From positions 3,886,553 to 3,950,552 of the forward strand of contig OZ020520.1 in NCBI GenBank assembly GCA_963971425.1: DNA of 64,000 nt. The letters run 5' to 3'. Shown here piece by piece: positions 20,471 to 64,000 of this stretch; position 1 is the first letter of the stretch; each line of letters opens with the position of its first letter. The DNA comes from Bryoerythrophyllum caledonicum. Taxonomy: Eukaryota > Streptophyta > Bryopsida > Pottiales > Pottiaceae. The translations under genes were made by a program, and so were the position numbers. A model generated the notes under the pieces. That model did not search any database. It was not told the DNA's origin and saw only the letters and a list, made by a program, of their open reading frames with translations.

Positions 20471-23400
20471 GGAGGGGAGTACACCAGGATGATTCAAGAC
20501 AGCCTCTGTCGTGGCAAACTCCCACAGGGAGTAACGAACGGGATGCTCGCACTACTGCACAAAGGAGGTGTGCGCACGGTTCTTACGAATTGGCGACCTA
20601 TCTCGTTGCTCAACATCGCGTTTAAAATATACGCGAAAGCATTGCAGCTGCGCCTACAACCCATCTTAATGGAGATAATTAGTACGGAGCAGTCAACATT
20701 CTTACCACTCAAATTCATCCTTGACAACCTGTTGCTAACTCATGAGACGATGGCGTGGGCAGAGCAATCCAGTCAACCTCTCCTCTTCTTGAAACTTGAT
20801 TTCACCAAAGCGTACAACATGGTGGACTGGAGGTGTATGTTCAAAATTATGGAAGCCATGGGCTTCCCATCCGAATTCGTCAACATGATACGGTTACTTT
20901 TTTAGGAGGCATCATCAACAGTCAAAGTTAATGGGAGCCCATCACCACCATTCAATATCGAACGTGGAGTAAGACAGGGGTGCCCTCTCGCACCGTACCT
21001 CTTCATTATCATGGCGGAGGCCTTGAACATTATGGTTAAAGAGGAGGTACACAGTGGCAAGGTGGCAGGGATTCGGTTACCCTGCAAAAATAGACAACAA
21101 ACTATGGCACAGTATGCAGACGATACCTCATTCACTCTTTTGGGCAGTGAGGAAACTGTGAGAAACCTTGTCTATATGCTGGGAGTGTTCTGCTTAGCGA
21201 CTGGGCTCATCATCAACTGGGAAAAGTCGTGCGGATATTGGCAAAGCTGGGATGAGCACGGTCGACCTGCGTGGACGGACCAGCTCGGGATCAGCTGGGC
21301 AGAGAACAGTGAAGTAAGCAAGTTGTTAGGCGCTCCCTTCGGCATGGCTCTGTCGTCAAGTGACATAGATAACTTCATGTATGAACGTGTGGCGAAAAAG
21401 CTGATACGCTGGGGCTCCGTCAAGATCAACCCAACGGGACGCAGTGTCATCGCCAATAGTGTCTTATTATCTACACCTCTATTTTTCTTATCAATATGGG
21501 GGGGAACGAAGAAAGGAGTGCAACGCGTCCGCAGCTTGGTGATGAACTATTTGACGACTGGGACCTCGAGACGCTCAAGAGTAAAGGTCAGCTGGATCCA
21601 GTGTTGTCAACCTTTGGGCAAGGGAGGGCTTAATCTAATCAACTTGGAAGATGTCACGACGGTGTTGATGTCGAAATGGATCATCAAAGCACTGGAGCCA
21701 GGGACGTCGAACCTACACCTCCTGTTGCGGTATAGATTGGAAACTTTGCAACCATACCCAGGTGGGCGGTGGCCAGGCAGCCTTGAATATTTTACACTCG
21801 CGAAGCACCAAGCTCGAAGCGGCTCGAAGATTTGGAATAGAGCCACAGTCGCCTGGAAATCCCTACTGCCTGAACTAAAGTTTGTACAACCCACTAACTT
21901 CGAAGAATTGCTTAACTGCAGCTTTTGGTTCTGTCCAGGTTTCCAGAATATTGGCCCAGGCTTCTCCAGGAACCGCGCACTAACGCTCCATAGAAACGGA
22001 CTGACGAGATTCAGAGATGTATGGCAGGACTCGAGCTTCATGATCTTCGAAGAGGCGCAGGATCGCTTTGGGATGTATGATGCCGAACGAGGGGCATGGC
22101 AAGTCTTACTTGTGAAACTCAACAACGAACGAAGACTGCGTTTTATGTACACATCAAACACGACGGGATACGGCGAATGGATCGCTGTATTTAGCTCGGT
22201 CACTGCTAGTAACCCGGACATTGTCACCAAAACTGAAGAACGATTCCACCCTGCTACAGGTTGGCAGACAGTTCGGATTCCCTCAAACACCGAAGTTTTT
22301 CACGTTGGAGAGACGACGGCATACTTACAACCGTTAAGTTGGGAGGACAGAGAACATGGTGCTAGTTGGGACACTGGGGGGGACGATCAGGTGTCCACTC
22401 ACACGGGGTACATTAGACGTGTAAGAGTGGTCGTGGTCAAAAAGGGGCCGAAAATGACCCCGGTTCACATGTACTACGGGCGCGTCGACTCACTCGACTG
22501 GGACCCAGATCGGTACCAGTGGACTGGCGACATTCCGTTCATGGCCTTGACGGTCAAACTCGGACGCAGAATGCTCCAACGACGACATCTGGTCGTGTCC
22601 GTCGTAGAGAAAAAGTGGGAAGGTACCTTGCCAAGTTCCTACAAACTGCGATGGAATAATACGTGGGACAGTGAACGCATACGCAAGGAAGCTGGACTCA
22701 TATGGTTGATATGGCATAAAGCTGTCGCGGTGAATATTTGGAGGGGCAAGGTGCATGAGACTGTCGATCAACAGTGTCCAGTCTGCACGTGTGGCACGCC
22801 TGAATCGGTGCTCCACAGATTCTGGGAATGCCCCTCTACGAAGCAAGCCTGGTTTTGGGGTGCCGAAATAATGCATGCCCTTGTGCCGCAAAACTTGGCA
22901 ATTACGAGACGTCGACAACAGGAACACAACCTGCGTGGCACTGGGGTGGACCTGTCTATCCTGCCGGCGGAGCTTTCTATGCCTGAACAAAGGGAGCACG
23001 AGGACTCCCCGCTGTCTGGTGTCAGTAACGAGGGCAGCCCGTCCTACACCGGGAATGACCACAACCCCGTCCCTTTTACGTGGAAGCATGGAATTTTTGC
23101 GTATCGTATCCCACGAAGGTTCAGGAAAGTTAGTAGATTGTGGCTCCTTATTAGAGGAGTTATTATGTGGGCCCTCTGGTTCGAGCGCAATGATGCGGCG
23201 TTCAACAATGAGAGATGGTCCAAGCAAAAGTTGAGGGCGAAACTCCGCTCCAACCTGATTGACTATGGGAGAGCGGCGTGGTCCAAGATCCGGAACAAAC
23301 GCGAACAAGCTCCCGAGAAGAGCACCAAGCTCACCAAACACTTCAAAGACTTATGGTGTTGCAATGACGTGCTCGCTTCGTGGGTGGACGAGCGGCCTAG

Positions 23401-23601
23401 ATGGAGGGTGAATTCCAGTACCAATAGTTTGTATATTAACAGTAGGCCGTTGCATGTTACTAACGCTAACTTGTATGTGTTAACTAACGACTAACTTGTT
23501 TCAGGTCCTTTCCTGGCCTCGCCGGACCTGGCGGGGTGTCGCTTTGTTTCCGTTTTCTTTTCCTGCAGTAAAGGGTCCTTTACTTGTGCCAAAAAAAAAA
23601 A
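20471..23601 (+). pseudogene. 5'-truncated LINE with reverse transcriptase and zf-RVT (family 1)
   Basis: Non-LTR retrotransposon flanked by a 9-bp target duplication AAATTGATA (20462-20470 and 23602-23610) and ending in an A-run (23591-23604). The single frame runs from the truncated 5' end to 23494 with one in-frame TAG at 20903-20905. Seen in order: NWRPISLL, motif A FLKLDFTKAYNMVDW, motif B GVRQGCPLAPYLF, motif C QYADDTSF, motif D NWEKS, a zinc-knuckle region CPVCTCGTPESVLHRFWEC, and a C-terminal WALWFERNDAAFNNERW typical of plant L1-like elements. The endonuclease and first ORF are missing through 5' truncation. One stop in about 1000 codons implies a fairly young copy. Confidence 0.93.
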
Positions 23602-33729: not shown

Positions 33730-35432
33730 CAGTCCCCTCTACAAAGTAAGGTAACCTTCCATGGGTCAGCTCACATGTGTTACCTAGTTGATTTAATTGA
33801 ACATCCAAATTAGGAAGTTGATCCAGCCACAATAAATTGCAATTATATTATTGTAGTATCTGAGAATGCATTTACGAGTCGTCAGTGGCTTCTAGACTAG
33901 CAATTCCATGTGTTACATCAATTTGAGTATCATGTGGTATGTGAAGCTTTTTGAAACAATGCAGATATTTTTGAGAATAGGGAGCTCTGTGAGTACCTAA
34001 GTCGCTCAATTTTGGTTGCAATGTCATGAAGTTGAGTAGTTGTGATGCTCTGTGAGTTGAGAAGGTCACTCATACCTAGAAGGTTTTGCTACAAAATTTG
34101 ATTTCTTGTGATGTTGTAGTTGTTGATTTAGTAGCTCATAGAATTGTTGTGTCTGTCATTTTGCAAGTTCATTTTCACTCTCCCTCTCTAGTGCCATGAC
34201 AAGTTACTTCTTATTAGTAGAAGAGCAGAGTTTTGTTGAAGGAATGAACACAGCTAGAGCATCTTTGAGTGAAATTGCAAATGTAGTTGGAAAATTAAAA
34301 AAGAGCATTTCATTAGTCCTCAAGAGACATCGAGAGCGAGGTTTAGTACAAATAGCAAAAAGATCTGGACGTCCAAAAGAGTTGCAAGAGATTGATCGAC
34401 AAGTTCTCAAATATGAGATTGTCAAGAAATGTAGAATACCTCTTGATTAACTTGCTAGTAGCTTGCCCATTTCTGTGAGTATGAATACCATAAGAAAAGA
34501 AGTGCAGGACCTTTGATTTAGCAACCGAATTGCCAAGAAGAAACCTTTCTTGAATGAGAGACACAAGAAATTGAGGCTAGCCATTGCAAAAGAGCATAAA
34601 CATTGGACGGTGGAACAATGGAAGTTGGTTATTTGGAGTGATGAGTCGTCATTTGAAATCGGTGATTATTCACGTCAAACACGAGTATGGCGGACTACTT
34701 CACAAAAATTTCACTCACAATGTTTAGCACCAACATTCAAGTCTGGAAGGATGTCAATCATGGTTTGGGGTGCTTTTACTGCAACTAGTAAGTGTTTTTT
34801 TATTTTAATTCCTTTTAGACAACGCACTGCTATGGACTTTGTAGAGATTGTATGTGAGCAAGGATTATTGCCCTACTTCTACCACCATGCTAACCATGAA
34901 GAATTAGTATTTATGTTGGATGGTGCACCAACACATACAGCCAGAGTGACAAAAAATTGCATCAAAGATATTGGTTTAAAGATGCACAATTGGCCTCCAA
35001 ATACTCCTGACTTAAACCTTCTAGAAAACATGTGGATGATTTGTAAAGATAGGGTCCAGAAGATGAAAAGACAAAAAAAACAAAAGAAATTGTGGAATGC
35101 AGTGCAAGCAGCTTGGGAGAGCATACCAATGGAGATGTTAGACAAGTTAGCTGCAAGCATGCCAAAACGGATACAAGCTGTTATTGATGCCAGAGGAGGT
35201 AGTATACACTGGTAGTAGTAGTTGTTGATCAATCCAATTTTGAGGTTAGAATGAATACAAAATATTTGTATTTTTTTAGCTAGAAGCTTCTACATGTATA
35301 AAGCTAATTATTTATGGAAAATTTTCTATATTTGATGTGTACATGAGGTAGCATTAGTCAAGTTTTCTTGTTGGTCTCTTCCTGTGTGTGTGAGAAACAA
35401 CAAGCGGTTACCTTACTTTGTGGAGGGGACTG
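33730..35432 (+). mobile_element. Tc1/mariner element, near complete
   Basis: About 1.70 kb with terminal inverted repeats CAGTCCCCTCTACAAAGTAA at the left (33730) and its complement at the right (ending 35432). The right flank is TA (35433-35434) and the left is CA, a decayed TA duplication. It contains a transposase frame with two stops. Confidence 0.88.
34196..35215 (+). pseudogene. Tc1/mariner transposase, two in-frame stops
   Basis: A 340-codon frame with stops at 34448-34450 (TAA) and 34514-34516 (TGA), otherwise open. N-terminal helix-turn-helix part (SLSEIANVVGKLKKSISLVL), then the catalytic triad: D in VIWSDESSFEIG, D in VFMLDGAPTHTARV, E in PDLNLLENMW. Thirty-four residues separate the second D from the E, that is, DD34E as in Tc1 elements. 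All catalytic residues are intact, so decay is recent and limited to the two stops near the end of the DNA-binding region. Confidence 0.9.
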
Positions 35433-44913: not shown

Positions 44914-45596
44914 ACACTACTCTCGTACTACTAAACACGCTCTTCCCCTCCAAACAATCTTTAAAATCACTCTAGATTAGTTCATACGGATATTTGCTAT
45001 AGTAATCCAGTATGTGGCCCCTCACTATGTCCATTTGAAGATATATTGCTTCTTGATTTCTTCTTAGAAAAATCATTTAAATACCAATATTAATTCCACA
45101 TACATGGTTGGAGTCCCTCAGTCAACAGAAATCACGATTAAAATTTCCATTTAATTCAAGTTCAGAGTCTCCCTCCTTAAATCTCACTTACTCGTTGGAT
45201 ATTTATAAGTCTTGATGAATAACTAGTTGAAATTGTACTTGGAATCCAACTTTCCTCTCATCTTTTTGTGCAAAGAATTTTTTTCATCAAAACACAATTC
45301 ATCCACGGTCATAGGGTAGTAATACCCATTTCATTGGTCAGTCCCTACTCTAATTTCACTTCTAGTGGCAATTTAGTACATCTTAATAGCACTTCAATCT
45401 CAGATCTAGTCCAATTTTCATGGCTATAGGACCCTACCCTAAATGTTCACTTTTACTTTTCCTTTAACATTAACTTTAAGTTTCCGTAAACTTTACCTTT
45501 TTTTCCTTAAACTCTCTACTTTTTGCGCTCTGGGCTCGCGAACCAAGGCTCGCCACTCTACGCTCGCAACTCTATGCTCGCAAAATAGCTTTCCCC

Positions 45597-48500
45597 ATTT
45601 GAACCATAGATGTTAGTATGGCTTGGTCAAGATGGCTATCGTGGAGGTTAGGGTGTGTTATTTGTGTATTTAATAGATACAAGATGTTTATACAATCTAT
45701 AAAGATGTGTGCAAGTTCATTAGCGTATTGTGTAGTGATCATTTGGAGGGTTTAATGGAGGGCCATCATTTCTACTCTGAGGATATTTTGAAGTCCATGT
45801 AGTCTTTTGGATATTTTTATTCCTTTGGTAGGGTTATATATACCATATCTAGCTTTTTCTCTATGCCAATGCGCCAAGCTAGCTTCTGTAGGTTCTTTGA
45901 AGGAACCATCTGTGTAGTAACTATATACGAGGGCAAATTTTAAGGGGATATGGTTACAATATGCGGGGAGAGGGTGGAATGATGAGGTGGGTTTGTGTTG
46001 TGTTGGCATATCTAAGTTGGGACTATTTCTTGTTGCATTCACTTTGATTTGGAAAGGCATGGTGGGGCTATTTTTTTATATAGTTGGCGTATGTTGAGTT
46101 TATTACGAAGGTAAGTTTGGCAAGTTGTTTCGTGACCAGTATAATGCGGGGAAAATAATAATACTGGTACTGGTGCCAGTATTATTATTTTGGAAGTGTA
46201 TGCATAGTATCCATATGGTAGATGGCTCGAGCCTAGGTTTATTTAATAATTCAGGTAGTAAAGTGGATTCTTCATATGGTACCAAGTCTGCCTCGGATAG
46301 AGCAATGATGTAAGAATTTGGAAATGGGCCTGCATGCGGGTTTAGAGTTTAGAGTTTTGATACCAATTATTGTCTTGTGTAATAATAAGAGTGGACGTAT
46401 AGTTTCGATCATTTTTGGCCGCAAGTCTTGCCTAATGTATTGCTTTTGTGTTTCTTCTGCATTGTGAGGGTGTGCAATACCATTTCCAATCCAATTGTCG
46501 TCAAAGGCGTTTCCTAGTGAGCCAAAAATTTGGTCTCTTCCGAAAGGTGAATAAGACTTAGTAAGTAGGACGGAGCATGTGACGGAGGATGAAAAGTACG
46601 ATTGTTGGATGCTGAAGGAGGATATTAGTGAGTCTAGAATGGGCGTGGGTAGTGTGTATTGTGCGAGTTTGAGGGGGTCATTTTTGGGATGCGATATTTA
46701 TATCTTTGGTATAGCCAAACTTTTTTTTGGTTTCAAATTGTTAAGTTATTGGCTCTAAATTGTAGAAGTTTATAATTTGTTATGGTATTGGTTCCATAGC
46801 CATTGGAGTCTAGTGATAGAAAAAATGATTAGATGCCTTCTGTTGTATTTGTATATATGTGCGTGGTCTTCATTGATATAATTGTATTGCTTGATGTGAG
46901 AATGTCTTTTTTGGGGTAACATTGGGTTGTGTGTATATTGAGGAGAGGAATGAGTATGGGTGGGCTAATGGATCTTGAGTCACAAAAATTGTTCTTAACG
47001 ATGGTGGGCTTGAATGATTTCCAAGTAGAATTTGTTTTGGATGTTTTGATAATATTGTATTAATCGTGTGGAATTATGGGTAAAGGTGTTTTGGTCATGC
47101 TATGGAAAGAGGTTATGTTTGGGTAACCATTTGTTGGAGGTGTTATTACTGTGTTGCTATTGGCATAAGTATTTGGTATCATTCTTTATAATTTTGTTTG
47201 AGTCAATATGCTTTCCGTGTTTATGGTCAATAGTGAGATTTATGAGATATATAGATGGGTTTTTAGGGATGTTTGCTGGGGGGAAGAAAGGAAGTCTATG
47301 ATGGATGGGGGGATGAATTGGCATGGGGTTGTTTTATAGAAGAATGTTATTGTTGGAGGTGACATATGTCTTTAAGTGTCTAGGGGCTTGAGTGTGTAGA
47401 GCATGGTGAGGTGCATGTATTAGGGCATAAGGGGTAGCAAAATAGTTGTTGGGCAATATTAGGAGCACTTTTTACTAGTTTGAATGGTTTTGCATGAAAT
47501 GTTTAGAAGTCATTGTGGTTCATGATGTGTGTTCCATTTGGTAATATAATCTCTTGTAAGTCGGTAATATTTACTGAAATTGTTTTTGTAAAAGTTTTTG
47601 GGAGAGGTGTTGGTTAATTCTTGTGTCATTTGGGGTTTCTTGTAGCCACATTTGCTCTAAAGGTAAGGTTCTAAAAGGAATTCTCTGGAAGTGGTTTTAA
47701 GGTAAACTTTTCCTTCATTTTTAGAAGAAAAAATGTTTGGATGATTGGTGATCTAATGCAATTGGCGTTGTTTATTTTAGGAATGTTTTTAGCACCACCA
47801 TGTTTGGTGAGGATAGAGTAGGTGAGGCCTTTGTATATCTTACCAAGTCTACCTTTGTCGTTGGGTGCATTTTGAAGTTGTTCCCCTATACATCGGAGGT
47901 ATGTATTTTAAAGGGAAAAAACTCCTAATCCAAATAAATTTTGTAGGAGTTGGGTTACAACATTGACATACATTTTAGGAGGCTACAATTGAATTTTTGT
48001 ATGGGTATAATTTTTGTGTAGTTTTTTAATTGCACGCATAGAGTATGGGATTGCATAGAAATTGTATGCTACTCCGGGTCTAAGTACTGTGTCTACCATT
48101 TTTATTTTTTGTTACATAGGGCCAAGGCATGTTATTGATTCTTTGCATTGTTTAGTAAGTTTTGTGGTAGTGGTGTGAATTTGTATCTTCCATTCTAGCG
48201 ACGGGTCAAGATGTGTGCCTAGATATACGTATGGTTCATTTTGATGTAGTGTAGGAATAGGTCGGTTACAGTATTCATGTTGGCGGCTTGCATAAGTGCT
48301 TTGAATGCGTTCAGGTTCATTTTGGATTTTTTTTGGACATCTCGTGGCGGGACATCTTTGGGTGCCAACATTTATATCGGATCAATCGCATAATTTGTCA
48401 ATATTATTAAGTTGGACTTGCATTGCTTACAATTTCTATGCCGCTTACGTAGTTTAGTTTTAGCAGCAAGGTCACCAAGGTAAGCGACCGGGTTTTGGTG

Positions 48501-48799
48501 ACTTGTAATGTTTCAAAGGTCTTGCCGTTATTTCCCCTTTGCATCCATCTTATGAATGGTTCTATAAAAATAATGAATAGATATGGGCTTAAGGTATCAC
48601 CTTATATGGTTTTGTTTTGTATGGATATGGGATGGATTGTTCAGAAATATTCTTCAATGTGTGGGGTGGAGTAGTGAGAGTAGATGCTCCCAGCTAGTGC
48701 GATTGCGTCTCTGGAGTATCCAAGGTCTGACATAATTGCTAAAAACCTTGTGTGGTCAATAGAGCCAAATGCATTTTTGAAATCAATTTATAGAATATA
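45597..48799 (-). pseudogene. second LINE, left copy: RT to RNase H segment
   Basis: Minus-strand continuation. RT motif A IDFKNAFGSIDH (about 48730-48790), motif B GDTLSPYLFIIF (about 48560-48610), and at the left the RNase H start YTDGSFKEPTEASLAHWHRE with VEMMALH (45752-46060). Many frame changes and stops between. It joins the 36634-37757 segment across the TIR element and the 50455-50604 segment across the mariner. Confidence 0.85.
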
Positions 48800-48969
48800 G
48801 AATGACCTCAAGAATGAATCTATGTGATTGACTGTATTATAAAAGTGACAATGTTGTGAGCATGAATGATCAAAGTAGAAAACGTTGAATACAAACGTTG
48901 TAGAAGATGAAGTAATACACAACTTAAAGATAAATGAATTTCAATTGCCCAATATTTATCAAATTACAT

Positions 48970-50110
48970 AAATCCAAAGTTGATTATTCACATAGACTCA
49001 TTTTTTGAGGCCACATCTAAAAAGTAGACAAAAATTTGTCCACTTGCCATGAGTAGCCAAACTGTTGCAATTCAATCGGGCATACTGGCATACAATCTTT
49101 CACACTCATTTGTAGTAGTGGTATGGTGATGGTGGTACAAACAGACACTTTAATCACGCAGGCCGCCTTTTGGCGACCGGTGTTCTTATTTATTTCGTGG
49201 TATGGAAACTCTCCTCCACACGCTCCTATAATTGAAGAAGACTGGTAGGAGTTGAATAGGAATTCAGACAACGTTTGAGAGTAGCCCAAACATGTCCAAT
49301 TGAATTGAGGTCTGGAGATTTTGTTGGCCACTCTAAAGTACTAAATGGTTGCTCCAAAAGCCATTTCTAAACTATCTTCGCTTTATGTATAGGAGCATTT
49401 TCATGTTGGAAAATGACTTTGTCAAGATTGAAGTACCCTAATCTTTCCAAACTCAAGTACAAATCCCTATGTAAGAGTACAATATAGTCTTCAGCATTCA
49501 TACACCCTTCCACCCTTTGTAAATCACCTAGACCTTTTATTGCCATGCAGCTCCACAACATTACAGACCCTCCACCATGCTTCACAGTTTGCTTTACAAC
49601 ACGATTAGGGACACTTTCCTTGTCATTGACCCAACACCAAGACCTCACATCAGCATTGAAGCAATTGATCTTTGTCTCATCAATAAACACTACTCTTTTT
49701 CCAATCCTCTACAATCCAATCTTTGTGAATCATTGCAAAACAAAGTCTCTCCTGTATATTCTTTTGTGACAGACAAGGCTTTCAAATCTTCTCATAAGCC
49801 CTCAATCCCACATCTCTCAATGCATTTCGCAGTGTGTTGTCACAGAATCCTACTTCTTTGTCCAATCTCAATACCTTTATCGCCTCAATTGTTGTTTCTA
49901 GCCCTCCAACAGTGACCAAGCGCAATGCAAGTTGATTCTTTGAAGGAGTAAGAATCTCAAGGCAACCTCGTTGTGGCAATTCTAGGCTATTGCAATGTTT
50001 CCTCCTCGCTCTATTCACTATGGATTGTGAGAAACCCAAAGAATTTGCAGCCTCTCCTGTACTTTTGCCTTTGATCAAAAGTGCAACAATGTCTACTTCA
50101 GCCTCTCTTC
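48970..50110 (-). pseudogene. Tc1/mariner transposase relic with altered catalytic residues
   Basis: Helix-turn-helix part GKSTGEAANSLGFSQSIVNR (49782-50078 frame), a frame change, then MFIDETKINCF (first D) to VIFQHENAPIHKAKIV, a stop at 49367-49369, and EWPTKSPDLNSIGHVW. The second catalytic position is E instead of D (HENAPIH for QDNAPIH) and the third is G instead of E (NSIGHVW for NPIEHVW), with DD34E spacing kept. The end of the gene is split by a 70-bp SINE. It is older than the mariner at 33730-35432. Confidence 0.88.
49127..49196 (+). repeat. tRNA-like short SINE, copy 4, with target duplication
   Basis: Inserted in the mariner transposase relic and flanked by the 9-bp duplication GTGGTATGG (49118-49126 and 49197-49205). 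Without the insert and one duplication copy the transposase reads on as …NECERLYASMPDRI…, the expected family sequence. Insert length is 70 bp, the shortest possible description of the mobile unit. Confidence 0.85.
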
Positions 50111-50454
50111 AAATTGGCTTCATCTTGCCAATGCTACCTCAACAACTTTGCTAAATGTCCTATAAGAATGTAGGAAAGAGAACACACAAAAAATTTCAAC
50201 AGAAAATAAGAATTTGCTAGCTCAATTTGCTCATTAGAGGTTATTTGAACCTTGCCTCAACAAATGAGTCTATGAGGGTGCACTCACTCTTTAAACCCCA
50301 ACTCAAATTCTCAATATTTTTTGAGAAAAAATTCCGCGTTGTGTGAATCTATATTTCATTGGGAATTTATTTTAGAATATGGCACATTTTTCTTTCATAT
50401 GTGTATCTCCAAAGTTGATAGCTACATGCGTTGATTCATTTGTTGAGCTCACTG

Positions 50455-50604
50455 TATTGGTCTTGGTTTGTAAATCGTGCTTCTTCGAGTGCGGCTAGTA
50501 TGGTTTGAAGTTGTGTAGCGGTACTTCTTTCCGCTTGAAAGCCTTGGTTGTTGTATAAGATTTGATGTTTTTCTTCACATAAGGATAGTATAGAATCTCG
50601 TCAA
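50455..50604 (-). pseudogene. second LINE, left copy: 5'-most RT segment
   Basis: Encodes CEEKHQILYNNQGFQAERST, the RT region ahead of motif A, ending TNQDQY at the mariner junction. At about 50604 it meets the second LINE copy, which runs the other way. Confidence 0.8.
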
Positions 50605-53600
50605 CTTCATACAATGAAGAATATTTCAAAACAACCTGTCCCATTTCCATACAACGTGGAACTATATAAGGTAATACCTTAAGCCCATATCTATTCATTA
50701 TTTTCTTAGAACCACTCCTAAAACGGATGCAAAGGAAAAATAACGCCTACACCTTCCGAACATCACAAGTCACCATTAACTCGGCCGCCTACGCAGATGA
50801 CCTTGCCGCCATAGCCAATAAACTAAAATCACTAGAAATCCAACTCAATAAAATTGACAAATTCCACGATTGGTCCAGTATGGATGTTGGCACCCAAAAA
50901 TGTGCCGCCACGGGATGTCCAAACAAATCCAAAATGAACTCCACCGCATTCAAAGCACTTATGCAAACCACCAACATGAAATACCGTAATCAACTCATTC
51001 CAATGCTACATCAGAATGAACCATATTGTACATGTATCTAGGCACACATCTTGACCCCTCACTAAAATGAAAGATACAAATTCACACCACTACCACAAAA
51101 CTTAGCAAACAATGTAAAGAACTAATAACATGCCCGGCAACTATGTAACAAAAAATAAAAATGGTAGACACAGTACTTAGACCCGGAGTAGCATACAATT
51201 TCTATGCAGTTCCATACTCTATGCGTGCAATTAAAAACTACACAAAAATTATACCCATACAAAAATTCAATTGTAGCCTCCTAAAATGTATGTCAATGTT
51301 ATAACCCAACTCCTACAAAATTTATTTGGATTAGGAGCTTTTTTCCTTTAAAATACATACCTCCAATGTATAGGGGAACAACTTCAAAATGCACCCAACG
51401 ACAAAGGTAGACTTGGTAAGATTTACAAAGGAGTCACCCACTCTATCCTCACCAAATACAGTGGTGCTAAGAACATTTCCAAAATAAACAAAGCCGATCG
51501 CATTAGATCACCAATCACCCAAACATTTTTTCTACTAAAACATGTAGCAAAAGTTTACTTTAAAAACACTTTCACAGGTTTCCTTTTGGAACCTTGCCTT
51601 TGGAGCAAATGTAGCTAAAGGAACTCCAAATGACACAAGAATAAACCAACACCTCTCCCAAAACTTCTATAAAAACTCTTTTCACTAAATATTACCGACT
51701 TAAAACAAGTTACATTATCAAACAAAACACACATTATGAACCACACTGACTTCAAAACATTTCATGCAACACCATTCAAACTAGTAAAAAGCGCCCTACA
51801 TATTGCCCAACAACTATTTTGCTACTCCCATGCCTCAACTCATGCATCTCACCATGCCCTACATACCTAAACCCCTACACACTCAAAGACAAATATATCA
51901 CCACCAACAACAACATCCTACCCATAAACAACCCTCCGCTAGTTCACCCCCCAATCCACAACATCCATTCCTCCCTCCATTCCTCCTTTCCTCCACTATA
52001 CATCCTCAAAAACCCATAAATCTCATTATTGACCATGAACATAATTGACTCAAACAAAATTATAAAGAATGATACCAAATACTTATGCCAATGGCAACAC
52101 AATAATGAAACCTACAACAAATGGTTATCCCAACATAACCTCTTTCCATGGCATGACCAAAACACCTTTACCCATAATTCCTCACGATTAATACAATATT
52201 ATCAAAACATCCAAAACAAATTCTACTTGGAAATCATTCAAGCACACCATCCTCAAGAGCAATTTTGTGACTCAAGATCCGTTACCCTACCCATACTCAT
52301 TCTCCTCCTCAATATACGCACAATCCAATGTAACCCCAAAAAAGACATTCTCACATCAAGCAATACAATTATTATCAATGAAGACCACGCACATATATAC
52401 AAATACAACGGAAGGCATCTAATCACTTTTCCCATCACTAGACTCCAATGGCTATGAATCCAATACCACAACAAATTACAAACTTCCACAAACATAAAGC
52501 CAATAACTTAACCATTCAAAATTGAAATAGTTTGGCTATAGCAAAGATATAAATATTGCATCCCAAAAATGACCCCCTCAAACTTGCACAATACACACTG
52601 CCCACACCCATTCTAGACTCACTAATTTCATCCTTCAACATCCAACACTTGTACTTCTCATCCTTCGTCACCTACTCCATCCAACTTACTAAGTTCTATT
52701 CACCTTTCGAAAGAGACCAAATTTTTGGCTTACTAGGAAATGGATCCATTTTTGGCTCATTTGTTGACCACAAATGAATTGGAAATGGTATTGCACACCT
52801 CCGCAATATAGAAAAATCACAACAAGGAATAAATTGGAGAGGACTTGCGGCCAAAAATGATCCAAACTCTATGTCCACTCTTATTATTACACCGAACAAT
52901 AACTCATACCAAAACTATAATCCACACTCAAGCCCATCTCCGGATTCTCATATCATTGTTCTATTTGAGGCAGACCCAATACCATACAAAGAACTCACTT
53001 TACCACCCAAATCATTTAATAAATTTAGGCTTGAGCCATCTACCATACGGATACTATGCATACACTATAAAAAATAATATAGATACTTCGTAACAACTTG
53101 CCACACTTACCTCCATAACAAATAACCTCAATATATGCCGACTTCATACAAAAATAGCTCCACCTACACCTTCCCAAACTCCGGTGAACCGTTACAAAAA
53201 ATAGTCCTAACTTGGATATGCCAACACAACACAAATCCACCTTACCACACCACCCCCTCCCCACATACCGTGACCATATCCCCTTAAAATTTGCCCCCGT
53301 ATATAGTTACTACACAGATGGTTCCTTCAAAGAACCAACGGAAGCGGGTCTGGGGCATTGGCATAGAGAAAAAGCCGGATATGGCATATACAACTCCACT
53401 AAAGGAATGCAAATATCCGAAAGACTACATGGACTTCAAAATATCCTCAGAGCAAAAATGATGGCCCTTCATAAAACTCTCCAAATTATCACTATACATT
53501 TTGCTAATGAACCTACACACATCTTTACAGATTGTATAAATGTCTTGTATCTATTAAACACGCAAATAACACATCCCATCCTCTACAACAGTCACCCCGA

Positions 53601-54556
53601 CCAGACCATATTAACATCTTTGGTTTGAATGCTACTAAATTGCATACAAATCACAACCCTCCATAGAATTAGAGCACATGTCAATATAGAAGGAAACAAA
53701 CAAGCGAATAAATTAGGTAAAGAAAGATTAGGTAAATCCCATAGAAATGCCAAACACATGCATGAACATGCCCATGCTACTGCATACTACTTCCAAAGAG
53801 AAAGTTGGTCTTCTATTGACGATACCCTAGACAAAGGCTCCATCATATCGCTGGATAAACATCTCAAAAAACAAGATCTAATTAACAACGTCAATTTAAT
53901 CTCAGAAAGTTTTCCTGACATAGATAAATGGATTGGTAACAACAACATTGATAACAAACTTTTTTCAAATTTTTAGAAAAATTCCACAATAATAGATTCA
54001 CAAAAAACATGCCTTACCAAATTTCGTACTAGAAGGTATATGGGAAATGCCCGTAAACAACTCTTCTCTGGAATAGAACAATCTCCATTTGTAACATGTC
54101 CCATATGCACTTCCACTAACCTGGACACATGGCTACACATACTCCTCAAATGCCGAAACCATTACATTCCCTCCCTGATTGTCAAAAGGCTCAATACAGT
54201 CATATGGGAAATCCAAAAACAAATCGTATCGTCAAACAGATCCCGATGCTTCATACTTATCAACGATGGGACCTTCAACAACAACCCATAAGGAAACACG
54301 TTCCTTCCATATCTACTTCCATGCACATGTGGAAACCAAAGATGTCATTGCAATGCCAAATTTAAACTATATATACTATGCGTCAAAGGACTACTGTATA
54401 TAGCTCCCCGAGTGGACCACATAGATACAAATCTTACCATCCAATTTATCGAATTCAAATAGTGTAATGACGGATTTTCCCTAGAAGCAATTGAAAACAA
54501 AATTAATAAATACCAACCACTTATCAATGACATTGGAGTTCATGGATAGAAAATTG
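50605..54556 (+). pseudogene. second LINE, right copy (plus strand)
   Basis: Starts before RT motif B and runs to near the 3' end. Seen: AYADDLAAIANK (motif C, 50727-51041 frame), a long decayed linker, RNase H YTDGSFKEPTEAGLGHWHRE with FTDCINVLYLLN and RAHVNIEGNKQANKLGKE (53212-53976), and the Zn motif CPICTSTNLDTWLHILLKC (54040-54291). The RNase H glutamate is replaced (RAKMMAL for RVEMMAL in the left copy) and the last aspartate is Asn (QANKL for LADKL). Multiple frame changes; inactive. Presence of RNase H places the family apart from the LINE at 20471-23601. Confidence 0.88.
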
Positions 54557-59479: not shown

Positions 59480-60237
59480 TCTATGGCAGTACGGCTTGTG
59501 GTTTTTTAGCTTGCTGCAAAATGGATGCTTGGAGGGAGAGTTTAGTAGCAGGTTTGACAGCTATAATGGAGGATGAAGAGCAAAGCAAGATTGTCGCTGG
59601 CATATTCTTTAGTGCAGGATGAAGAGCAAAGCAAGATTGTCGCTGGCATATTCTTTAGTGCAGAGCAAGGCAACGATGAGGAGTTTTTAGCCTTTTGCAG
59701 AGGTTATCCTTCAGGGAAAGCTCCAAATATTGATAGAGGTAGGCATGGAATGACTACTTTTCCGCCACTCCCGTTTTCGGTCTGCGCTTATTTCGACGGT
59801 GATTTTGAATACGGTGGTCTCTTTTCTTGACAATCTTGGGAGCAGTTTGTGAGCGTGATGCATACTTTGTTTAGAAATGGGATGTTGCGGACGTTTTGGG
59901 ACTGTCTCTACACCAAAAAATCACCGCCGCTCTACGCATCTTAGCCTACGGAGTATGTGCGGATGTAACTGATGAGTACTGCCGCACGAGCGAGGCCACC
60001 GCGATGGAGTCATTGAAGAGGTTTTGCGTAGCTATCCGTGAGGAGTACGAGGCGCATCATCTGCGACAATCTAATCAAGGTGATTTTGAGAGGCAATGTG
60101 CAATTAATCGTGAGTGTGGCTTTCCTGGTATGTTCGCATCTTTAGACTGTATGCATTATCAGTGGAAGAATTGTCCAGTTGGGGGGCAAGGGGATTATGG
60201 GAATAGAAAACACGAAATTAAGCAATTATGCACTTAG
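59480..60237 (+). pseudogene. PIF/Harbinger (HARBI1-like) nuclease relic
   Basis: Plus-strand relic of a PIF/Harbinger transposase. N-terminal piece QGNDEEFLAFCRGYPSGKAP (59573-59830 frame), then after a frame change ERDAYF…LGLSLHQKITAALRILAYG (59896-60237 frame), DEYCRTSEATAMESLKRF, FERQCAINRECGFPGMFASL and LDCMHYQWKNCPV, which contains the first catalytic Asp. The match ends shortly after the LDCMH motif (GDYGNRKHEIK), so the remaining catalytic acidic residues are missing. Terminal repeats were not found. Confidence 0.9.
59570..59661 (+). repeat. 46-bp tandem duplication within the Harbinger relic
   Basis: AGGATGAAGAGCAAAGCAAG starts at 59570 and again at 59616; the two 46-bp copies are identical as far as read. 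46 is not a multiple of three, so it shifts the frame. Confidence 0.95.
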
Positions 60238-60840: not shown

Positions 60841-61610
60841 CTCCCTCCACGTGTCCAATGGCGCTATCTACCACAACGGACAGTTCATGAGCATGCATTG
60901 GACGATCTCCCACATCTTCGATGCCAATGGACGCACACTCAACATATCAATATTTGCCAGGAACACCCTCCCGCGTATGCCTTACGCTATCTTCATTGTA
61001 GAAAAAACCATCCTCTACATTGAAGGACATCTCTCGCTTTGATGAGAAGGCCTCCTGAAATGCAATGATGTCTTTGGATACGTTAGATCTTAGAACGGAA
61101 GGCAAACCTGGTCCGGTATTACTCTCAGTACCTCCGAACGTCTCTTGTGTTTCTGATATAGGCTCCGATTGAGAAGGCATCAAAGGCTGTGGAATCCTCC
61201 TCTGCACCGAAAAAAAATTCATATGAATCCAATTCTTCTTCCTCCATCTCCAGCCTAGGACCATCAAATGTACGCCCCCCTCCTACCTCTGCCGCCAAAC
61301 TAACATCTACTACACCGGTATCTTACATCCTCTCTGTAGGTGTTGCAGACATGTCCTCTAAAATATCTCCCACCGCCAACTGTGTTGATGAAATCCTCAC
61401 TCTTGGAGGACATTGGTTCATTTCAACTTCATCGGTGTCTGAAGTCTTGTAGCTCGAGCTATTGCGAGATGAGGAATCTTCTATGTTACCTGAACGTGGC
61501 AATCTCTCATGCAAACCACCTCCATCCTCATTGTCGTCTTCATTCCTCACTCCACCAACCGCCTCTTTGGTCTCAACTACGATGTTGCAACCAGTCAGGG
61601 ATACCAATCA
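60841..61610 (-). other. possible coding remnant, function unknown
   Basis: Two adjacent minus-strand frames, 61323-61607 (94 codons, acidic and Ser-rich, ending near ISSTQLAVGDILEDM) and 60947-61267 (106 codons). Base composition and open frames differ from the AT-rich DNA to the left. No family recognised; they could be exons of one gene or an element's accessory gene. Confidence 0.25.
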
Positions 61611-61619
61611 GACGTCCTT

Positions 61620-62060
61620 GGCGGTCAGAGAGCGTTCTAGGACGTCCCAGGACGAGGACGTCCTGACGTCACGTCGGACGCAGCATCCAGGGGGTTAACA
61701 TGCATTTACGGAAGGCCCTGGTAAGTTTTATGGACCGTCAGATTTGACGAAGTGCCACGCGGCAAGATCTCAGCCGTCGAAATGAGACAAGTCGTCCAAT
61801 CGGTCCCTGCCGTCGGAGAGATCGGACGGCATCTCGGCCGTCCGCCTGATCGGACGGCCGAAGGACCGATCGTACGGCCCCGATTTGATCGCGGGGGCAC
61901 ACGACGGCCGTCCGATTAGGCCGACGGCTCTAGGGTCGACCGAGCGGGCGGACGGCCATCCGATCCGCGGCCGTGGTGGCGGTCGACCTCATGGCCGTCC
62001 GCCACCCTATAAAAGGCCGTCCGCCAACCAAAGCCTCTCACTTTTTCCTTCCTTTCTCGA
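61620..62060 (+). promoter_or_regulatory. candidate promoter with GGCCGTCCG cluster and TATA box
   Basis: GC-rich block in which GGCCGTCCG or its complement CGGACGGCC occurs about seven times (about 61822, 61835, 61851, 61905, 61949, 61991, 62015). One pair forms a perfect 10-bp stem (61835-61844 with 61851-61860, 6-nt loop). A consensus TATA box TATAAAA lies at 62008-62014, so transcription would start near 62040, giving a leader of about 365 nt ahead of the kinase-like ORF. Repeated GACGTC words at 61610-61680 lie at the left edge. Confidence 0.65.
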
Positions 62061-62189
62061 AATATATTTTCGAGTGGATGCGGAGTGGCTTTGGCTGGCA
62101 TTTTTCCATCCATTGGCTCCTCATCTTTGGGAGGGAAACAGTTATTCACATTGGGGGGAGTTTTTGCGGTTTTTTAAAAGTTTTTTTAA

Positions 62190-62400
62190 AAACTTCTTCG
62201 AAACATAGTTTTTCTCGTAGTTTTTTTTTAGAACTTGTTCCAAACTAGTTTTTTCTTCAAGTTTTTTTTAAAACTTGTTCTAAGAAGTTCTTTCTCATAG
62301 TTTTTTTTAGAACTTGTTCCAAACTAGTTTTTTGCTTTAAATTTTTTTTAAAACTTGTTCCAAAAAGTTTTTTTTAAAAACTTCGAACGGCGGCGGGTTT
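62190..62400 (+). repeat. 40-bp tandem repeat in the leader of the kinase-like gene
   Basis: The word RAACTTGTTC recurs at 62231, 62271, 62310 and 62351, about 40 bp apart, each preceded by a T-run of 8-9. Three of the copies continue into CAAACTAG or CAAAAAG. GAAC and GTTC within the word are complementary. Confidence 0.85.
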
Positions 62401-62406
62401 AAGAAG

Positions 62407-63891
62407 ATGCCGAAGGACAAGAAGAAGCAGAAGGTTGCGGACTTCGGAGTGAAGCTTCATCCAATCCACGACGTTCCATCTGAGGCTTGCAAGAATTTCC
62501 TCATAGGACTGACTGTCAGATTCTATGAGGAAAATTCTATTCGATCATTGGAGAGCAAGTACGTCAGATACAGAGATGAAGGCCCCGAGAAGTTCCGAAC
62601 GGACATGCGGAAGCACATGATGGACGTGCTTCAAGCCCCGATGTGGAATACGGAGACCCAGAAGCACGGATTTTTGAAGTTCTTGGATGCCAGAGTGCAC
62701 GATTCACTCTGGAATGTCAAAAACTTCTTGACCAAGTTTGGAAGGTTCAATCGCGCGGCGGATGAAGTTTTTAACAACATGCTATTGAAGGCGGACTTGT
62801 TCGTGATCCAGATGAAGCCATTCGCCAAGAATCGAAACCGGCGTGGCTCCGTGGGATGGTGGAACTCGATAGAGGGGCACCAAGAGGACCTGCTGCGTAA
62901 AGCCCATCTTATTGCCATTCCGCCAACAGCCGCGGTTATACGAATGGACAGTGCGAACAGGAGAGGTGGATACGCCACCATTCGCAAAGTCCGCATTGAG
63001 GATGCTCCGGGCAGTGAACCATTCTGGGAATTTGCCGCCAAATTGTCTAACCAATCGGAGACACGGCCGGATTTGGCAAAAGTGGAGCATCAGAACAAGT
63101 CGATGGCGGTGAGGATTCCACATCCGGGTGTCATCCGTTTCGTGGCCATTCATCCGGACAAGTACAAAAGCTATGCGTATTGGTGGAATGGCGGGACAAT
63201 TCGGGATATGTTGAACCGGGATATTGAGCTTGGTGACGATGTCATCACACATTTGAACTATGGGAGATTTCCCGATGATGAGATTATTCGAGTTCAACAA
63301 TTGGTTCGTTTTCGCAAAAAACGGACCGAGCTTGTATGGGCGTTGTTGCGCATCATGAACGAGGTCCACAAGAGCAACAATCTCCACAATGACTTCTCTC
63401 CGGACAATATCCTCCTCCACTTCCCGCCAGGTGAATCGCGAGTGTATATTGGAGTATGCGATTGGGGCATGACCACGAAGGTTAACGAACCAATGCAATC
63501 TCTTTATACGTTCACAAAGCGTGAAGACATGGCCGAGACTCTGCGAAAGCGATGGTGGGTCGATCCGCGGGTTGCATACTTGCACAAACCAGATGCGGAT
63601 GTGCAAATGATTCCGAAGTTATCGATGGCTTCGGAGGAGTTCGCTACGGCCCGAATAGCGCAACGAATCAACGCGCGGACAATGTCCATCGACTACGAGA
63701 ATCTGCAACGGGAATCTCGGAGTTCCGTAGTATTCTCAAATCAAGAATTTGCGGATACATTTCATATGTACATGGAGAGAGTCTGCAACGAAAACCGAGA
63801 AAGCGCTGGAGGGTTGTTTCATATCATTACACGCTTCAGCGACACATACAACTGGCCCACGCCTCATGAGCATTATAGGTCAACGTATTAG
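62407..63891 (+). CDS. divergent protein-kinase-like protein, intronless
   Basis: Unbroken 494-codon frame without introns. Residues 1-180 form a basic N-terminal region (MPKDKKKQKV…) with no known domain. From about 187 a protein-kinase fold can be read: Gly-rich loop RRGGYATIRKV (185-195), a VAIK-like EFAAKLSN with candidate Lys212, HPGVIRFVAIHPD (239-251) and WWNGGTIRDML where hinge and helix D are expected, then the catalytic loop LHNDFSPDNILL with Asp329 and Asn334, and VYIGVCDWGMTTK with Asp352 as the metal-binding DFG equivalent. The HRD arginine is Asn and the DFG phenylalanine is Trp. All three acidic/amide catalytic residues and Lys are present, so activity is possible. I do not recognise the subfamily; the gene could be host or belong to a mobile element. 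Start chosen as the first ATG after the leader repeats. Confidence 0.85.
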   Translation: MPKDKKKQKVADFGVKLHPIHDVPSEACKNFLIGLTVRFYEENSIRSLESKYVRYRDEGPEKFRTDMRKHMMDVLQAPMWNTETQKHGFLKFLDARVHDSLWNVKNFLTKFGRFNRAADEVFNNMLLKADLFVIQMKPFAKNRNRRGSVGWWNSIEGHQEDLLRKAHLIAIPPTAAVIRMDSANRRGGYATIRKVRIEDAPGSEPFWEFAAKLSNQSETRPDLAKVEHQNKSMAVRIPHPGVIRFVAIHPDKYKSYAYWWNGGTIRDMLNRDIELGDDVITHLNYGRFPDDEIIRVQQLVRFRKKRTELVWALLRIMNEVHKSNNLHNDFSPDNILLHFPPGESRVYIGVCDWGMTTKVNEPMQSLYTFTKREDMAETLRKRWWVDPRVAYLHKPDADVQMIPKLSMASEEFATARIAQRINARTMSIDYENLQRESRSSVVFSNQEFADTFHMYMERVCNENRESAGGLFHIITRFSDTYNWPTPHEHYRSTY

Positions 63892-64000
63892 TAATACATA
63901 GGTTTTATTTTATTCCTTTCGGCATTATTAGACTATACTAGATAGCATGCACATTTTGAAGTGACTATAGCAATAGTCTTAGATTTATATGTATTGCATG
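63892..64000 (+). other. 3' flank of the kinase-like gene
   Basis: AT-rich, no polyadenylation signal that can be called with confidence before the window ends. Confidence 0.4.

Follow-up and report, generated by a model that had tools for sequence, protein, structure and literature searches.

A kinase-like gene at the left end of a high-copy hAT transposon in Bryoerythrophyllum caledonicum

The kinase-like gene and its surroundings

The window, by which we mean the entire 64,000-nucleotide stretch of Bryoerythrophyllum caledonicum DNA that was analysed, contains a kinase-like gene near its right-hand end (Table 1). As the original prediction had described it, this gene is an intact, intronless frame without internal stops, and on base composition alone the chance of 494 stop-free codons is about 4e-12. 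K212, D329, N334 and D352, together with the HND and DWG triplets, were found at the positions claimed for them, and the N-terminal 180 residues form a basic region with a net charge of +11 and a pI of 9.9. Upstream of the gene, a TATAAAA box occurs within 600 bp of the ATG in 26 of the 30 copies of the gene that we fetched from the genome, and in 23 of those it lies at -486 to -491. The spacing between this box and the ATG in the window copy is about one unit of the intervening tandem repeat below that of most other copies.

Table 1 Features of the window copy of the element (window positions unless a contig is named)
Feature	Position	Strand	Remarks
Host DNA CAACCAGT, candidate left half of an 8-bp target duplication	61588..61595		Directly outside the left terminus
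Left terminus of the transposon, CAGGGATACCAATCAGACGTCC (most copies CAGGGTTACCAATCCGACGTCC)	61596..61617	+	Sharp homology boundary, 811 bp before the kinase ATG
Subterminal stretch rich in GACGTC / CGTCC	61596..61685		Putative transposase-binding array
TATA-box-like TATAAAA of the kinase gene, within the left end of the element	62008..62014	+	-399 from the ATG in the window copy
T-rich tandem repeat, 41/80-bp unit, presumed 5' leader	62170..62372		Found with TRF; unit number varies among copies
Kinase-like gene, 494 aa, left-end gene of the transposon	62407..63891	+	ATG to stop
RGGYA, residues 186-190, glycine-rich loop-like	62962..62976	+	Read directly; PK_Tyr_Ser-Thr match begins at residue 187
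Lys212 (FAAK), candidate ATP-binding lysine	63040..63042	+	Weak 5.1-bit alignment to the FAAK lysine of a CaMKII chain; 30/30 copies
Glu227, candidate alpha-C glutamate	63085..63087	+	Same weak 5.1-bit segment, KLERE of the CaMKII chain; invariant in 19/19 aligned copies
Catalytic loop HNDFSPDN, residues 327-334	63385..63408	+	HND is 327-329; HNDLSPDN in most copies
DWG, residues 352-354, candidate metal-binding Asp	63460..63468	+	DWD in 1/30 copies (L004)
Element DNA after the kinase gene	63892..64000		Element continues past the window end
413-aa gene of the window copy	C8:3954841-3956070	Opposite to kinase	Downstream of the window

Elsewhere in the window, positions 45596-53631 hold a long imperfect inverted repeat, made up of 14 paired pieces that are 78-94% complementary, with arms of about 3 kb and about 1.9 kb between them. 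This structure fits a flip in GC skew, from +0.44 at 46-48 kb to -0.32 and -0.40 at 50-54 kb. Of three further open frames of the window, the one at 21011-23494 resembles a LINE reverse transcriptase, that at 34550-35215 a transposase of the Tc1 type and that at 59896-60237 a PIF/Harbinger-like protein.

Comparison of the window protein with Pfam gave matches to Pkinase (E 4.1e-5, 23.5 bits; curated cut-off 31.7) and PK_Tyr_Ser-Thr (E 0.0018, 18.1 bits; cut-off 23.1). Because both fall under the curated cut-offs, we term the protein kinase-like and do not file it as a member of either family. The stretches of strongest similarity cover the catalytic loop and DWG, and Pkinase was matched at E up to 1 by all 19 copies that were scanned, with a best E of 7.3e-6. 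The set of residues characteristic of eukaryotic protein kinases (K212, E227, D329, N334 and D352) is complete, with the register of the Lys/Glu pair taken from a weak alignment. The PDB yielded no sequence match at E < 0.005. Its best single-protein match was 6vvg (E 0.0059), an HND-bearing chain of 279 aa whose file is labelled 'Arginine kinase' and whose sequence we presume to be of the baculovirus PK-1 type; the top profile-based PDB matches were cellular kinases. With a poxvirus kinase model, 17 of 19 copies gave matches at E up to 1, the strongest of them at E 0.05, and scans of the window protein against PHROGs and NCBIfam returned weak, uninformative matches only. FunK1, which we take to be an expanded kinase family of fungi, was considered and was absent among the three Pfam matches at E up to 10. 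Two single-sequence structure models of the protein had mean pLDDT values of 36.8 and 33.4, which are too low for a fold to be assigned. At the level of sequence, the similarity to protein kinases is real, if weak.

K212, D329, N334 and D352 are unchanged in all 30 fetched copies, which were the best-scoring ones, and this conservation makes a working phosphotransferase plausible. The protein could instead be a pseudokinase, a kept fold serving as a binding scaffold that tethers, for example, the transposase or a host factor without phosphorylating anything. Such a reading would suit the replacement of HRD by HND and of DFG by DWG, the low similarity to all Pfam kinase models and the C-terminal 44 residues, which have the lowest dN/dS of the protein (0.04, on very few changes). 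We nevertheless consider it improbable, as the five catalytic-set residues, E227 included, are both present and conserved, and kinases with another residue preceding the catalytic Asp are often active.

Copies, ends and gene order of the element

We searched the window's own assembly (437 Mb in 894 contigs) for further copies of the gene. From 2106 first-look candidates, 87 near full-length copies were scored, and a 33-base piece of the catalytic loop had 277 matches in the genome at up to 3 mismatches (reversed control, 0). Scored copies are 90-95% identical in protein, with the exception of the window copy itself, which is rather divergent: it differs from the 29 other fetched copies by 57-72 nucleotides, and mean dS is 0.03 among those 29 as against 0.11 between them and the window copy. 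No in-frame stop was present in 30 of the 87 scored copies, whereas 57 had at least one. The description of the frame as undamaged in a decayed region is therefore true of the window copy, but an open frame is not unusual for this gene.

Homology among the copies starts abruptly at CAGGGTTACCAATCCGACGTCC or a near variant of it in 29 of the 30 fetched copies, with unrelated flanks outside. The left terminus pattern has 500 matches in the genome at up to 2 mismatches and the right terminus, GACGTCGAGCGTCCTGACAACCCTG, has 420 at up to 3; the reversed control gave 0 in each case. Both ends start with CAGGGTT (left, CAGGGTTACCAATCC; right, as reverse complement, CAGGGTTGTCAGGACG), and only these first 7 bases match in order, after which the two ends share GACGTC motifs. 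The hAT superfamily is characterised by short terminal inverted repeats of this CAGGG type. In the gap-free element at C1:44192192-44208554, five of the six GACGTC motifs lie within 60 bp of its two ends.

We examined 14 pairs of ends for target duplications and found eight with identical 8-mers, one matching at 7/8, two at 6/8 and three unmatched. Ten of these pairs were chosen among combinations of the listed places where the left or right terminus occurs with zero mismatches; they comprise five identical pairs, one at 7/8, one at 6/8 and the three unmatched ones (3/8, 4/8 and 1/8), which may reflect wrong pairing. The other four pairs consist of three identical ones and one at 6/8.

Elements that contain both termini, the kinase gene and a transposase gene measure about 15-23 kb. 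The order of their genes is left terminus, kinase (forward), a gene for a 413-aa protein (reverse), a RING gene (forward), a hAT transposase gene (reverse) and right terminus. Four loci hold all four genes in this order, namely C1:13.55 Mb, C1:44.2 Mb (where genes are broken), C2:2.01 Mb and C9:24.45 Mb. The gap-free element on C1 spans 16,363 bp, has a 6/8 duplication and contains broken kinase, 413-aa and RING genes together with a transposase relative. Among the elements flanked by 8/8 duplications are C1:57881340-57896373, which is 15 kb long including a run of N and holds the kinase, the 413-aa gene and the transposase, and C2:4962317-4985976, which is 23.7 kb long and holds the kinase, with no transposase among the matches listed. 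Copies of about 9 kb had been considered as complete elements; this idea was dropped, as runs of N lie near the right ends of five of five copies and the gap-free copy is 16.4 kb long.

The transposase of the copy at C1:57.88 Mb scores above the cut-offs of DUF659 (E 9.7e-34) and of Dimer_Tnp_hAT (E 7.3e-9). The 413-aa protein has a C-x2-C motif and internal repeats, and no Pfam match above cut-off was found for it. The product of the RING gene matches zf-RING_2 above cut-off. In one stretch (L048), three open segments follow one another in one frame with single stops between them and hold, in turn, an N-terminal domain, weak coiled-coil matches and the RING; this N-terminal domain is 37% identical to that of the 413-aa protein over 122 aa (E 2e-19). 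We infer that the three segments belong to one RING gene. At C675:2209-3453 the RING match lies inside an open frame of 1080 aa, in agreement with a single long gene, and the full RING protein may exceed 1000 aa.

These arrangements recur throughout the genome. Among the 87 scored kinase copies, 55 are followed by a convergent 413-aa gene within 25 kb, 13 by a same-strand RING gene within 30 kb and 8 by an inward hAT gene within 30 kb, with one case of another arrangement for each of the three. A hAT gene is followed by a convergent RING gene within 8 kb at 33 of 58 places, with 0 other arrangements. Pooling the scored copies with 100 listed motif places gave 14 of 138 for a kinase followed by an inward hAT gene, with one other arrangement, compared with 0.26 (maximum 3) at random; a 413-aa gene was followed by a hAT gene within 20 kb in 9 of 102 cases, compared with 0.12 (maximum 2) at random. 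The random control consisted of 500 placements of the hAT places over 13 large contigs, the length of one of which (C15) was guessed, and the linkage counts rest on the best-scored or first matches listed. Seven hAT places chosen by hand are left out of the counts of a hAT gene following a kinase or a 413-aa gene. Transposase and kinase are thus linked well beyond chance. At the same distances, a listed transposase in the expected arrangement is missing from 79 of the 87 scored copies and a listed 413-aa gene from 32, and part of these missing partners is explained by runs of N, the use of lists of best-scored places and short contigs.

Homology among the copies persists for more than 5 kb beyond the stop codon of the kinase gene. 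The DNA downstream of the window copy (L031 and L072, 20 kb) matches the gap-free element as far as a position beyond the 413-aa gene; after a run of N, nothing in these 20 kb matches the right half of the element, and no transposase was found. Neither the right terminus (at up to 6 edits) nor a partner of CAACCAGT was found in the same 20 kb. Either the window copy is truncated or the assembly is broken at this point. A LINE-like RNase H remnant (L031 1978-2748, minus strand; Pfam RNase_H E 1.5e-11) lies within the element that carries the window copy of the kinase. It is resembled by a stretch of another copy (L033 3563-3877), which suggests an old nested insertion that has been carried along.

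Other structures with related ends were also seen. Two loci, C6:26469900 (L036) and C2:1352700 (L040), are bounded by sequences similar to the element's left end (77-96% over parts) but enclose other open frames, and may be sister elements that carry a different cargo. Because its flanks mirror each other, the C6 locus L036/L037 was regarded as a probable artefact of assembly and left out of consideration. C2:33397979-33400236 (L038) and C6:7341603-7342412 (L039) are fold-back derivatives with the left end on both sides, each with a run of N. An LTR retrotransposon carrying the kinase was rejected, as comparison of the left end with five downstream stretches in four copies gave no match at E 1e-5. 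A search of the genome for the KDZ transposase (PF18758) had no match and was equally silent in all 14 control genomes.

These data show that, in this plant genome, a hAT DNA transposon present in many copies carries the kinase-like gene at its left end. The original prediction had left two origins open, and the one that invoked a mobile element has stood, on the evidence of the terminus, the 8-bp duplications, the dispersed copies and the linkage to hAT. The other, a lineage-specific host kinase family arising by ordinary duplication or retroposition, could account for an intact intronless frame in hundreds of copies; we reject it as having next to no likelihood, because the copies examined share sharp termini, 8-bp target duplications and a linked transposase. 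Descent from an endogenous virus was suggested by the HND-bearing 6vvg chain as best single-protein PDB match and by the matches to the poxvirus model. It is very improbable given the hAT transposase, the terminal repeats, the target duplications and the cellular kinases that lead the profile-based PDB matches. Searches sensitive to close relatives only confirmed no relative in viral contigs and found none in prokaryotic genome contigs.

Selection on the genes

Comparison of the window copy with the 29 other fetched kinase copies gave a dN of 0.026, a dS of 0.113 and a dN/dS of 0.23; these 30 copies were those scoring best against the window protein, a choice that favours low dN. By part, dN/dS was 0.20 for the N-terminal 180 residues and 0.31 for residues 181-450. 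The 413-aa gene had values of 0.29-0.36 when six distinct copies were compared with the window copy (nine comparisons, three of which repeat a locus), and transposase pairs had values of 0.42-0.54 without the C1:44.2 Mb copy and 0.66-0.75 with it.

We then divided the changes in the kinase gene into those present in a single copy and older ones. Among single-copy changes, C>T and G>A predominate, and CG and CHG contexts are hit hardest (33 of 108 CG, 13 of 53 CHG and 20 of 175 other C sites show C>T), a spectrum as expected of methylated, silenced DNA. Under this spectrum, the neutral ratio of nonsynonymous to synonymous changes is 2.02. The single-copy changes comprise 124 nonsynonymous and 83 synonymous ones (ratio 0.74 once scaled to the neutral value) and 12 stops where 11.4 were expected; they are nearly neutral, stops included. 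Shared changes are 16:18, with one stop in addition, and fixed differences of the window copy are 17:18. Together these older changes number 33:36 against the neutral 2.02 (scaled ratio 0.45; P 0.0012, on the assumption that changes are independent and with sharing between copies standing in for a tree), and they show constraint. Compared directly, single-copy and older changes differ with a Fisher P of 0.09, which is not significant alone. The notion of many broken copies in neutral decay, which accompanied the original prediction, thus fits the single-copy changes but not the older shared ones. Individual insertions decay like dead methylated copies while the transposing lineage keeps its kinase, which is the pattern of a gene owned by the element.

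The near-neutral decay of single copies would also be expected if a host kinase had been captured once and amplified with the element while being of no use to it, as in Pack-TYPE elements. Such passive cargo would agree with the lack of a listed linked transposase at most scored copies, which could be mobilised in trans, and a drifted gene might show just the weak kinase similarity seen here. We consider this explanation rather unlikely in view of the constraint on older changes. It also sits poorly with a left terminus at similar distance in 29 of 30 copies, a TATA-like box that 26 of 30 have in their terminal region, three further genes alongside the kinase at four loci and four catalytic residues intact in every one of 30 copies. 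No donor host gene was found, by searches unable to reveal a distant donor. As the older changes are constrained, the word 'passenger' in the original prediction may be too weak for a gene of this mobile element.

Proposed role and comparison with known systems

We think it probable that the left-end gene of this hAT element encodes an active, divergent kinase that has been kept through transpositions by helping the element, most likely as an accessory factor acting in trans. Read from its sequence, the protein would be a divergent and probably catalytically active kinase that lacks the usual Arg ahead of the catalytic Asp. It would have stayed with the element through many transpositions by helping the element rather than the plant, a benefit that we infer. 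Its likeliest role would be that of an accessory trans-acting factor, together with the two zinc-binding-like proteins, comparable to accessory genes in other multi-gene plant transposons. By analogy with VANC of VANDAL transposons, it may modify either host silencing factors or the transposase complex. A more elaborate proposal, which we offer tentatively and hold to be doubtful, is that this large plant hAT represents a type not described before, whose two-arm protein-modifying module of kinase and RING ubiquitin-ligase-like protein would jointly disarm host silencing or control the transposase, so that an element of 15-23 kb could reach hundreds of copies. The third protein would then share with the RING protein a new C-x2-C domain that binds DNA or protein.

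Plant DNA transposons that multiply a gene for a protein-modifying enzyme have a precedent in MULEs, which reportedly (Hoen 2006) carry ULP-like SUMO-protease genes; those elements differ from the present one in being MULEs rather than hATs and in carrying a protease rather than a kinase. VANDAL transposons likewise belong to the MULE superfamily. In VANDAL elements, VANC acts as an anti-silencing protein, and the regions that it targets form tandem repeats (PMC10398659, PMC5735166). Like VANDALs, the present element is a plant DNA transposon with several genes, has tandem repeats close to them and may possess an accessory anti-silencing function. It belongs to another superfamily, and for VANC the domains named are DUF1985 and DUF287 rather than kinase or RING (PMC10398659, PMC5735166).

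Large class II elements with cargo are also known from wheat-pathogenic fungi. ToxhAT, or ToxTA, is a class II element of 14 kb that carries a cargo gene; it has been reclassified as Tc1/Mariner-like on the basis of its TA duplication (PMC12506042). That duplication, its single copy and its likely non-autonomy set it apart from the element described here. Pack-TYPE elements, among them Pack-hAT, are defined as non-autonomous and as carrying captured fragments of coding genes (PMC8903248). They too are plant class II elements with coding DNA other than a transposase, whereas here whole open frames recur in one order and a transposase is also present. We did not assign the element to this class, given the transposase within its termini and a whole open frame rather than a fragment, although copies without a transposase would fit the 'no transposase' half of the definition.

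No description of a hAT carrying a kinase gene, or a kinase and a RING gene, came up in searches of the titles and abstract openings of open-licence PMC papers, and a term search of the main text of a 2026 review on how plant transposable elements capture genes (PMC13317346) returned neither 'hAT' nor 'kinase'. The element also calls for care in annotation, as copies with intact frames may be labelled a 'kinase family' of the host in this plant and its relatives.

Plant hATs typically have one transposase gene and a length of a few kb, and hATs are usually regarded as one-gene transposons. With the Ac/Ds type the present element shares 8-bp duplications, short repeats that start with CAGGG, a transposase with DUF659 and hAT dimerisation domains, and arrays of subterminal motifs; it differs in its size of about 15-23 kb and in three extra genes, including those for the kinase-like and RING proteins. 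A hAT of 15-23 kb that keeps kinase-like, RING and zinc-binding-like proteins would offer a new place to study how host control is evaded or steered, and a direct test of the use of accessory enzymes by an element.
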